A stretch of DNA of 37,817 bases. Source: an uncultured Verrucomicrobiota bacterium (GTDB taxonomy: Bacteria; Verrucomicrobiota; Verrucomicrobiia; Limisphaerales; UBA9464). The stretch spans positions 1 to 37,817 of the forward strand of contig CAIWVP010000196.1 in assembly GCA_903916195.1 (NCBI GenBank). The letters run 5' to 3'. The stretch's first letter is position 1. Every line of letters starts with the position of its first letter. This document shows, piece after piece, positions 16,467 through 35,681 of the stretch. Both the position numbers and the translations under genes were made by a program. Below the pieces are notes generated by a model. The model worked only from the letters and a program-made list of their open reading frames with translations, did no database searches and had not been told where the DNA came from.

Positions 16467-17270
16467 ATGGAACGGCTTGGGCTCAACCGGAGCGGCTACT
16501 TCGGCGAACGCATCGACATCGATATCACGTTGGAGGCGTGTGCCGCGGCCGCGCGACGCAACGGCTGGAAGGTCGGGTCGTTCCCGGCGGGCGCCCTCGG
16601 CCTGGTGGCCCTGCACCGTCCGGCGCCGGCGGGGAGCGCTTCCGCGCCGCGCGTCTATCTCTCGACGGGGATGCACGGCGACGAACCGGCTGGTCCGGTC
16701 GCCGCCCGCCGCCTGCTGGAAGAGGACCTCTGGCCGGCCGCGGAGATCTGGTTGCTGCCGTGTCTGAACCCGGACGGCATCCGGGCCAACACACGGGAGA
16801 ACGCGGGCGGCATCGACATCAACCGAGATTACCGCCATTTCCGCAGCCAAGAAGCCCGCGGTCACGTCGAGTGGCTCGGGCATCAGCCGCCGTTCGACCT
16901 CACCTTGCTGCTGCACGAGGACTGGGAATCGCACGGGTTCTATTGCTACGAGCTGAACCCTGACCGGAGACCATCGCTGGCGGAGGTGATGATCGAGGAG
17001 GTCCGCCCCGTCTGCCCGATCGACGGCTCGGAGACGATCGACGGGCGTCCGTCGCGGCATCCCGGGATCCTTCGGCCGGAGGAATGGCCGGACTTCGATC
17101 CGGCGGAGCGCGCGGAATGGCCGGAGGCTCTCTGGCTCAGCATGAACCAGACGCGCCTGAACTACACCCTCGAGGCTCCGAGCGATTGGCCGCTCGCCGT
17201 CCGGGTCGAGGCGCTCGTCCGCACCGTGCGCGCTGCGATGGAGCGTTGCTGTGCGGAGGCGGTCCGGTAG
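16467..17270 (+). CDS. M14-family zinc carboxypeptidase/deacylase
   Basis: This 267-aa cytoplasmic protein (no signal peptide) has the metal and catalytic residues of the M14 family. The zinc ligands are His70 and Glu73 in MHGDEP and His150 in LLHEDW. Substrate-binding NRD is at 119-121, and the probable catalytic Glu236 is in YTLEAP. Its short length and GMHGDEPAGPVAARRLLEE segment resemble the succinylglutamate desuccinylase/aspartoacylase-like and murein-peptide amidase branches rather than digestive carboxypeptidases. The substrate is not clear. It could be a murein peptide or an acylated amino acid. The ATG at 16467 is chosen because upstream codons overlap the divergent promoter region. 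hemW starts 16 nt after its stop. Confidence 0.83.
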   Translation: MERLGLNRSGYFGERIDIDITLEACAAAARRNGWKVGSFPAGALGLVALHRPAPAGSASAPRVYLSTGMHGDEPAGPVAARRLLEEDLWPAAEIWLLPCLNPDGIRANTRENAGGIDINRDYRHFRSQEARGHVEWLGHQPPFDLTLLLHEDWESHGFYCYELNPDRRPSLAEVMIEEVRPVCPIDGSETIDGRPSRHPGILRPEEWPDFDPAERAEWPEALWLSMNQTRLNYTLEAPSDWPLAVRVEALVRTVRAAMERCCAEAVR

Positions 17271-17286
17271 GCTGCGCGGCCTGCGT

Positions 17287-18600
17287 ATGGATGTCTCCCT
17301 CGCTCCCGGGCCGGTCCCTGCCCCCATCGTCTTCCGCCCGCGCGCGGCCGCCGTGCCCGCTCCTGCGGCGGTCCCTTCGTCCCGGGAACCGGTGCGCAGC
17401 CTGTATGTCCATGTGCCGTTCTGCGCGCACAAGTGCGAGTACTGCGCCTTCTACTCCGCGCCGCCGTCGGGCGACGTCATCAACCGCTACGTCGCCGCGC
17501 TGGTGCGCGAGCTGGAGCTGGTCGCACCGGATTGCCGGCCGGACACGGTCTTCTTCGGCGGCGGCACGCCCTCGCTGCTCACGCTCAAGCAATGGGAGAC
17601 CGTGCTCGGGGCGATGGACCGGCTCGGCCTCACCGGCGCGGGAGAATGGACCGTGGAGTGCAATCCCGCGACCGTCTCCGCCGACAAGGCGAAGCTGTTG
17701 CGCGACGCCGGCGTCAACCGCATCTCGATGGGCGTGCAATCCCTCGACGAATCGTTGCTCGAACGGCTCGGGCGCATCCACTCGCGCGAGCAGGTCTTCC
17801 GCAGCCATGACATCCTGCGCGCCGCCGGCTTCGACAACCTGAACATCGACCTGATGTTCGCCATCCCGGGCCAGACGATGGGGCTCTGGCACCGCACGCT
17901 CGACGAGGCGCTCGCGTTGGGGACCGAGCACCTGAGCTGCTACGAGGTCATCTACGAGGACGACACGCCGCTCTACCAACAGCTCCAGGCGGGAGAGTTC
18001 GACGTGGACGAGGAGCTCGCCTGCGAGATGCACGAGGCGTTGGTCGACCGTGCGGCCGGCGTCGGTCTCCGGCAATATGAGGTCGCCAACTTCGCCCGCG
18101 ACCAGCGCGTCGGCGTCGGACAACCGACGCCGAACGCGGAGCGGACCTCCGATATCCGATCCCCGATCCACCGTCCCCTGTCGTCGATCCCCGCCCTGGC
18201 TTGCCGCCACAATGTCGGCTACTGGCGCGGCCGCGATACCTACGGGGTCGGCCCGAGCGCGAGCGAATACGTCCGCGGATTGCGCGCGAAGAACTGGGCG
18301 AACACCGACCTCTGGATCGGGCAGCTGGAGAAGGGCCGGCGCGCGAAGGAATCCGCCGAGGCGCTGGCGCCGGAGGCGAGGGCGGGCGAGTTGGCGGCGT
18401 TCGGTCTGCGCATGAACGCGGGGTGGCCGTTCGCCGAGTTCACCGAGCGCACCGGCTTCGACCTGCGGACCGGATGGCGCGCCGAGCTGGACCGTCTGGT
18501 GGCCTGCGGTTGGGGCGAAGAGACGGCGGATTCGTTCCGGCTCACCCGTCAGGGGCTCCGCTTCGCCGATTCGGTGGCGGAGATGTTCCTGCGCTCCTGA
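17287..18600 (+). CDS. hemW: Heme chaperone, radical SAM family, with an in-frame insertion
   Basis: This 437-aa protein is HemW, the radical-SAM heme chaperone related to coproporphyrinogen III dehydrogenase. The [4Fe-4S] motif CAHKCEYC has the CxxxCxxC spacing and is followed by AFYS. Further motifs are FFGGGTPSLL, ECNPATV, ISMGVQS, LNIDLMFAIPGQT and CRHNVGYW. Between YEVANFAR and CRHN, where the family normally has about five residues, there is a stretch of about 32 residues (272-304, bases about 18100-18198). It is polar, Arg/Ser/Pro-rich and includes a strong DNA hairpin, so it looks like an inserted repeat that stayed in frame. The C-terminal HemW domain is intact. An upstream GTG at 17251 would overlap the peptidase stop. 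The ATG at 17287 fits the family better. Confidence 0.93.
   Translation: MDVSLAPGPVPAPIVFRPRAAAVPAPAAVPSSREPVRSLYVHVPFCAHKCEYCAFYSAPPSGDVINRYVAALVRELELVAPDCRPDTVFFGGGTPSLLTLKQWETVLGAMDRLGLTGAGEWTVECNPATVSADKAKLLRDAGVNRISMGVQSLDESLLERLGRIHSREQVFRSHDILRAAGFDNLNIDLMFAIPGQTMGLWHRTLDEALALGTEHLSCYEVIYEDDTPLYQQLQAGEFDVDEELACEMHEALVDRAAGVGLRQYEVANFARDQRVGVGQPTPNAERTSDIRSPIHRPLSSIPALACRHNVGYWRGRDTYGVGPSASEYVRGLRAKNWANTDLWIGQLEKGRRAKESAEALAPEARAGELAAFGLRMNAGWPFAEFTERTGFDLRTGWRAELDRLVACGWGEETADSFRLTRQGLRFADSVAEMFLRS
18107..18198. repeat. REP-like palindromic insertion inside hemW
   Basis: Bases 18107-18119 pair with 18124-18137 to form a 13-bp stem with a single bulged base and an ACAA loop. This is followed by a run of related short units (TCCGATATCCGATCC-like, 18147-18175). 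The whole stretch coincides with the residues that HemW proteins usually lack. No stop is introduced, and the encoded peptide (GVGQPTPNAERTSDIRSP) is low in complexity. This looks like an interspersed palindromic repeat inserted in a tolerated surface loop. The boundaries are estimated from where family similarity stops. Confidence 0.6.
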
Positions 18601-35345: not shown

Positions 35346-35585
35346 GTGCCGGCGCTGGTGGGCGAACCGGGGTCGGTGTTCGCGGGCCTGTCGGACCTTT
35401 CCGTCATCGCGGCCGGTCTGTTGCTGGCGTTCTGGATGGTGGCGTCCCCGGGGTATCCCGAGGCGCGCACGATGGCCGGCATGGCGCTGGGCTGTAGCCT
35501 GCACTTCGTCTTCCTGTGGGCGGTGCTGGATCTGCTGTCGCGCATCCTCGGCGGGCTGGAACGGAGGGGGCAGGAAAGCCAGTGA
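35346..35585 (+). CDS. Small membrane protein (79 aa), unknown function
   Basis: From a GTG at 35346 the frame encodes 79 residues with two hydrophobic helices (LSVIAAGLLLAFWMVA and GCSLHFVFLWAVLDLLSRIL) and a polar, charged end. The residue pattern looks like a real membrane protein, but the start is weak and the frame is open further upstream without a start codon. It could be the tail of a decayed gene. The stop codon lies inside the first unit of the period-8 repeat array, so the natural C-terminus may have been altered by that insertion. I do not recognise a family. Confidence 0.4.
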   Translation: MPALVGEPGSVFAGLSDLSVIAAGLLLAFWMVASPGYPEARTMAGMALGCSLHFVFLWAVLDLLSRILGGLERRGQESQ

Positions 35586-35681
35586 GCCAGTGAGCCAGTG
35601 GGTAAGTGGGCAAGTGGGCAAGTGGGCAAGTGGGCGGTTGACCTACTTGCCTACTGGCTCACTGGCTTACTCGCCTACCCC
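35578..35681. repeat. Period-8 tandem array with opposing complementary array (cruciform)
   Basis: From 35578 the sequence runs in 8-nt units: GCCAGTGA twice, GCCAGTGG, GTAAGTGG, then GCAAGTGG three times, and a diverged unit to 35641. From 35642 the complement appears in the opposite order, also in 8-nt steps (CCTACTTG, CCTACTGG, CTCACTGG, CTTACTCG, CCTACCCC). The GCCAGTGAGCCAGTRGG segments of the two halves pair almost perfectly. A 10-nt CGCCTCCTTC repeat follows at 35682-35704. The element holds no gene and could fold as a long hairpin. Confidence 0.75.

Follow-up and report, generated by a model that had tools for sequence, protein, structure and literature searches.

Does the hemW gene of this Limisphaerales genome, from an order of soil and freshwater bacteria, contain a structured DNA repeat that entered a conserved housekeeping enzyme in frame and was tolerated there as a surface loop? 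The sequence-only reading had proposed as much, and had further seen in the insert a sign of active spread of such elements and of the creation of new protein segments. The stretch analyzed (37,817 nt, hereafter the window) is contig G000:C196 of a 4.39 Mb draft genome of 211 contigs. The gene, its loop and its repeats were characterized, HemW loops were compared across the order and the phylum, and related elements were examined in other genes and genomes.

The window's HemW and its loop

The features of the gene and its loop are as follows.

17251 to 18600, plus strand: hemW, radical SAM heme chaperone HemW, 449 aa, from the open reading frame list
18100 to 18186, plus strand: residues 284-312, the part of the loop found hypervariable from loop lengths, with disorder predicted from AlphaFold2 pLDDT
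18107 to 18137, no strand: imperfect palindrome with the loop ACAA at 18120-18123 and a 10 bp stem, 18110-18119/18124-18133
18138 to 18169, no strand: second imperfect palindrome, 19-nt overlapping arms, 74%
18149 to 18193, plus strand: degenerate 7-mer run CCGATNN (Tandem Repeats Finder 18156-18193, period 7, score 32)
18187 to 18201, plus strand: conserved end of the extension, IPALA, residues 313-317, from the alignment of 68 sequences

The frame is open from 17251 to 18600 without interruption, as the sequence-only reading had stated, and its product is HemW (TIGR00539, 221.8 bits against a cut-off of 205.4, with the radical SAM motif CxxxCxxC). The AlphaFold2 model of the protein had a mean pLDDT of 84.3 and a pTM of 0.83, with a block value of 48 at residues 291-310 and of 86 and 92 in the flanking blocks. 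A sequence search of the PDB found no HemW structure, and the loop was therefore placed on the AlphaFold2 model only. In the window 34 residues separate YEVANFAR from CRHN, and 44 residues run from YE up to HN. In outgroup HemW from other orders and classes of the phylum (20 genes read out of 58 outgroup genomes searched), the distance from the Y of YE to HN was 14 residues in 19 of 20 and 21 in one. The insert is real: the extra residues are absent from 19 of the 20 outgroup proteins. The earlier figure of about 32 residues that HemW normally lacks becomes 30 relative to the usual 14, and only 17 relative to the nearest sisters, G002 and G004 (27 residues). In G003, the nearest genome by UvrC, a distant HemW paralogue was the only HemW match. 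The inserted residues were found not to be conserved, being wholly different in sister species. From R283 to P314 no residue was invariant or nearly invariant in the 68 aligned sequences, while P314 and A317 of IPALA (the IPxxA end) were invariant in all of them, and the extension accordingly looks old and its middle free to vary.

The hairpin carries less weight. Of the 13-bp stem with an ACAA loop described previously, the loop and 10 perfect pairs hold, and the three further pairs (18107-18109 with 18135-18137) form only across a bulged A18134. No other perfect stem of at least 10 bp enclosing 3-10 nt occurs in the window; dinucleotide shuffles of the window average 1.15 such stems, with at least one in 24 of 40, and the palindrome alone thus proves nothing. 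Shuffles of the hemW gene contained such a stem in 22 of 500 cases. The RNA fold of 18100-18205 had a z of -2.02, with an equally good fold in 5 of 200 shuffles, and the repeat scores of the loop were weak (tandem p = 0.04, inverted p = 0.07).

Genome searches yielded no second copy of the whole insert or of the palindrome. The whole 126-base insert had none in its own genome or genus, the next best genome match being at E 0.074 (83% over 30 bases), and the weaker matching loci examined were mostly within long open frames. A joined query of loops from relatives and the window gave two matches at E<=0.01 in the window's genome, the first being the window itself. Partial matches in G005 and G003 (L287, L288), whose open frames have 586 and 590 codons, were set aside as chance. 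The palindrome was also rejected as a genomic family: its core pattern, CGGACAACCGNCGNCG with 2 mismatches, had 259 matches against 161 for the control, and the loci examined were mostly long open frames in which the second arm was missing by eye. The proposed active spread is not shown at this site, where the palindrome is single-copy and at chance level.

The 7-mer part behaves differently from the whole insert, and the related short units noted earlier are substantiated by it. With up to one mismatch allowed, CCGATNNCCGATNNCCGAT (18149-18167) matched the genome 7 times and the reversed pattern not once; the 7 matches represent 5 places including the window, hence 4 other places and a small dispersed family. 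The absence of further genomic copies, which would have spoken against a repeat, thus applies to the insert as a whole and not to its 7-mer part. In the same genus, G001, G006 and G007 contained 22, 48 and 56 matches with a reversed control of 0, and the two nearest sisters, G002 and G004, contained none. The pattern was counted in 29 genomes, and the reversed control was nonzero in 5 of them (G010, G011, G041, G043, G045). Cyanobacterial STRR are dispersed tandem arrays of heptamers, and cases of heptamer arrays are known within rnpB and a tRNA-Leu intron. The run at 18149-18193 resembles these in its dispersed tandem 7-mers, though it is degenerate (score 32). Compared with intragenic REP or Rickettsia palindromic elements (RPE), the insert has a stem-loop (10 bp, ACAA), though not beyond chance, and lies in frame in a conserved gene whose orthologues lack it; only its 7-mer part recurs in its own genome. 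An assignment as a CGTC-tagged REP was considered, such REPs being dispersed families with an unpaired CGTC tag, a stem of 8-9 bp, a loop of 4-5 nt and a short tail. CGTC does precede GGCGTCGG-ACAA-CCGACGCC, and the lengths match Table 1 of Di Nocera et al. 2013 (PMC3733652); the assignment was rejected because the searches revealed no family and the TC of CGTC is paired with GA in the tail.

An extension in every Limisphaerales loop read

HemW was located at 135 loci, of which three (L114, L178, L185) had no motif match; the remaining 132 rows yielded 102 distinct loops. For 53 of these the stated taxonomy of at least one source genome placed it in the same genus, family or order, and 49 were assigned to the order by similarity and record titles alone. 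The loops spanned 19-96 residues from YE to HN (median 31), so that all 102 exceed 14 residues, by 5 to 82. Such a HemW is also present in public MAG records under the titles Akkermansia muciniphila or Klebsiella pneumoniae (L101, L151 and others), and these titles look wrong.

Repeats were scored against dinucleotide shuffles (200 per loop, 100 per control segment) for 101 of the 102 loops, one of less than 24 nt being omitted. At p<=0.01, tandem repeats were present in 22/101 loops, inverted repeats in 8/101 and either type in 25/101 (counting L044, whose repeat is weak), compared with 7/303 equally long control segments from the same loci. The tandem units included heptamers such as ACCAGCA, TTCCCCA, GAAACTC and ATCAACT and 8-mers such as GGAGTGAT, and in L143, L117 and L150 units of 7-8 bases were arranged as inverted arms. 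Several members of the family have plain Ala/Pro/Gly-rich loops.

Membership of these loops in repeat families of their own genomes was examined with two joined queries. Fourteen long loops, joined as one query, were searched against their 14 genomes, and among the matches listed further copies of the own loop were found for 8 of 14: over most of the loop in G041, G050, G058, G060 and G062, and over part of it in G036, G055 and G061. Among the same matches no own-loop copy appeared for G000 (the window), G014, G043, G051, G059 and G063. The second query, of 13 short heptamer loops, gave further copies of the own unit for 8 among the matches listed (G064, G065, G066, G068, G069, G070, G073, G075) and none for the other 5, and several of the short-loop units were common to multiple genomes. 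About half of the repeat-type loops searched therefore belong to repeat families of their own genome. Two units, CAACATT and the CCCTCTCCCC hairpin, were found again in many of the 14 genomes and are thus widespread in the order and not private to one genome. The longest loop, that of G041 (L161, 96 residues from YE to HN), contains a dispersed element of approximately 118 bp with a CCCTCTCCCC...GGGGAGAGGG hairpin, which was present in whole or in part in all 20 of the other stretches fetched (77-95%), most copies having both ends in common with the one in HemW.

Some close relatives were found to differ completely at this site. L109 and L111 share 95.1% identity over 366 aligned residues outside the loop, and their loops are unrelated, one being a CAACATT/AATCCAAC array and the other a 69-bp palindromic element. 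The loops were likewise wholly different in L122/L134 (94.3%) and L133/L184 (91.3%), and the same heptamer was retained in both loops of L140/L151 (94.0%). On a loop-free tree of 101 HemW, the repeat label (25/101 rows) requires 16 changes, 5 of which are forced by well-supported branches alone, and none of 500 shuffles (mean 22.4) clustered the label as strongly. With so few forced changes and such clustering, inheritance contributes as well. Because of its weak scores (p 0.04 and 0.07) the window loop was labelled 'no repeat' on this tree, and the clade of 37 rows around it contains two rows labelled repeat, one of which (L044) is weak.

In-frame elements in other housekeeping genes

A second dispersed family of the window's genome is represented in the window itself by the following feature.

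35572 to 35680, no strand: inverted 8-mer array, CCAGTGAG/AGTGGGCA and complement, over the stop codon (35583) of a plus strand frame

This array has the same architecture as the arrays in the loops and belongs to a dispersed family of its own genome. The 8-mer pattern with up to 2 mismatches had 62 matches against 31 for the control (overlapping matches counted), 10 of them exact. Twelve loci were examined, two of which (L314, L316) had no motif match. In 9 of the remaining 10 the array lay no more than 65 codons from one end of the longest overlapping open frame, and the only mid-frame array was that of UvrC (L320:877-2664, minus strand, on G000:C118), where the inverted 8-mer array is in frame before LPDLILIDGGKG. 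At least one case in the window's genome is therefore clearer than that of HemW. In the same genus, the UvrC linkers of G002, G003 and G004 contain varying versions of the 8-mer ahead of LPDLILIDGG; the linker varies strongly across the genus (the motif used in this comparison matched 13 of 19 genes), and that of G036 has, by eye, a different inverted repeat. At G000:C121:24208-24277 an 8-mer array of CCAGTGAG is directly followed by a 7-mer array of CCGATCA on the other strand.

The broadest case was observed in G062. Its element is approximately 70 bp long with 23-bp inverted ends; the arms are nearly identical among copies and the middles unrelated. A covariance model built from 10 copies gave 111 matches over both strands, which correspond to 58 places as counted from the match rows. 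Of these, 38 were read (L334-L372; L352 had no arm-pattern match), the remainder being mostly weaker. In 20 of the 38 the element was in frame and lay within a span matched to a named family, or between two such spans. Eight of the 20 hosts are DNA replication or repair proteins (LigA, RecN, UvrB, AddA, AddB, DnaX, RecQ, Mfd), the others being HrpB, MnmE, ProS, ValS, HemW, HemE, HemB, AcnA, a glycogen debranching enzyme, Aas, an OppD-like ATPase and a metal P-type ATPase. The position between spans is deduced for AddB and RecN, whose second spans were counted without coordinates. Five more places were at or outside the matched span (LuxC-like, HydE-like, M3 peptidase, CstA, UDG family 4), and 13 had no named family, of which 8 were scanned (L356, L359, L366, L369 and L372 were left out). 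The presence of the same element in frame in hemW, hemE and hemB (L347, L358, L362) places it in three heme-related genes. As a dispersed palindrome in frame in several proteins, the G062 element has the attributes of intragenic REP and RPE. HrpB of G050 and XseA of G058 likewise bear the element of their own genome.

A Y1 transposase domain (PF01797) was present in all 8 genomes searched. No elements were found beside Y1 transposase genes at the 4 of 12 matches read in G062 or at the 4 of 4 in G000, so that no REPtron for the G062 element was found among the 4 of 12 matches read. In G041 a diverged copy of the element (75% over 75 bases) lies approximately 280 bases from the best Y1 transposase match, and in G050 7-mer copies lie approximately 860 bases from a Y1 transposase gene.

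Events of this kind are already known, since palindromes inside ORFs have been described as intragenic REPs. According to the main text of Di Nocera et al. 2013 (PMC3733652), GTAG- and CGTC-tagged dispersed palindromes occur inside ORFs, more than half of the inserts are dimers or groups that encode 20-30 residues, and many are in DNA synthesis and repair genes. The same text places most intragenic GTAG repeats in Opitutus terrae, of the same phylum, with both uvrA, DNA ligase and RNA helicases among the hosts, and most intragenic CGTC repeats in Rickettsia conorii; the recB REPs of two Xanthomonas species are at about the same site. HemW is not named in that main text. The likeness is in dispersed palindromes within ORFs, often of repair genes; the difference from what that text describes is that here a single site is used across a whole order by unrelated families, 7-8-mer arrays included. 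RPE, as summarized in the same source, are palindromic elements in frame in proteins that are likely functional, a feature shared with the present cases, which differ in coming from Verrucomicrobiota drafts and in comprising several unrelated families with replacement at one site. The TAACTGA arrays of Beggiatoaceae and cyanobacteria (PMC4679880) are also dispersed tandem 7-mers, 'intergenic' by the title of that paper, whereas here heptamers also code for protein inside an enzyme. Borg proteins, as described in PMC9879509, acquire disordered regions from tandem DNA repeats and are similar in that DNA repeats create disordered protein segments; compared by description only, Borgs are extrachromosomal and archaeal, and their repeats are tandem and not inserts of a dispersed family. 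Among the matches listed from the open-access literature, no paper dealt with inserts in HemW or with repeats in the coding DNA of Limisphaerales.

Origin and meaning of the loop extension

Taken together, these results suggest that HemW of Limisphaerales probably has an order-specific extension at a surface site which has been repeatedly entered by dispersed genomic repeats, often with replacement. The common site, the extension in every loop read, the assignment of about half of the repeat-type loops searched to families of their own genomes, the replacement between close sisters and the elements in frame in other housekeeping genes are direct observations. The extension would occupy one surface site just before CRHN, with the IPxxA end kept and the remainder free to vary. 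Palindromic elements and short 7-8-mer arrays, often as inverted arms, would have landed repeatedly in this loop, and some sister species would thereby bear unrelated repeats at the site. The survivors would be those insertions that are in frame, free of stops and within a tolerant loop. Entry may have occurred by insertion or template switching followed by selection, and the loop itself presumably has little function. The original interpretation, of a structured repeat in frame that is tolerated as a surface loop and supplies new protein segments, is thus largely right on the evidence from relatives; UvrC of the same genome also speaks for it, while the window's HemW remains a weak instance. 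The position of the site, the 7-mer family and the UvrC precedent suggest that the window loop is a worn member of the series (a 7-mer run and a hairpin), at best a worn example of an event type already known in outline.

For the window loop, an ordinary low-complexity linker whose length has drifted by slippage, with a hairpin that arose by chance in DNA of 68% G+C, is a rather unlikely explanation. It would account for a hairpin that is expected 1.15 times per shuffled window, for an insert without a second copy in genome or genus, for repeat p values of 0.04 and 0.07, and for the plain Ala/Pro/Gly-rich loops of several family members. It fits less well with a 7-mer unit dispersed in the genome and part of the genus, where the reversed control is 0, with clear repeat inserts at the same site in relatives, and with the UvrC case in the same genome. 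We consider it improbable that HemW of this order uses the extension as a functional part, in contact with a partner or heme, with the repeats as mere filling: an extension in all 102 distinct loops read and the invariant P and A of IPxxA in 68 sequences would be expected of such a part, but its length ranges from 19 to 96 residues, no residue from R283 to P314 is invariant or nearly so, and the loop is predicted to be disordered. It is highly improbable that the repeats are retained for an mRNA hairpin that would slow translation or shield the transcript where the radical SAM core gives way to the C-terminal domain, as the inverted arms in 8/101 loops at p<=0.01 and the window fold (z -2.02) are set against 93/101 loops with no such inverted signal and 19/20 outgroups in which 14 residues suffice.

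Under the preferred reading of repeated entry by dispersed repeats, what appears to be new is an order-wide and often rewritten site that is fed by unrelated families, protein-coding 7-8-mer arrays among them. We tentatively suggest a broader possibility, that Limisphaerales might keep a few fixed protein sites (HemW before CRHN and the linker of UvrC) as landing sites that are rewritten continually, into which a currently spreading family is copied and later replaced via recombination or template switching between dispersed repeats. The residues made by repeats in LigA, UvrB, UvrC, RecN, Mfd, MnmE, ValS and others also call for caution in annotation and phylogeny. Furthermore, the loops provide in-frame repeat inserts that can be counted at a single site of a single enzyme, with clean 14-residue outgroups as the state before. 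They allow tests of how coding DNA acquires short repeats and of whether the resulting segments stay neutral or gain function. If the broader possibility were true, scattered repeats would steadily supply the whole order with new disordered protein segments, and HemW would naturally record the repeat history of each genome.
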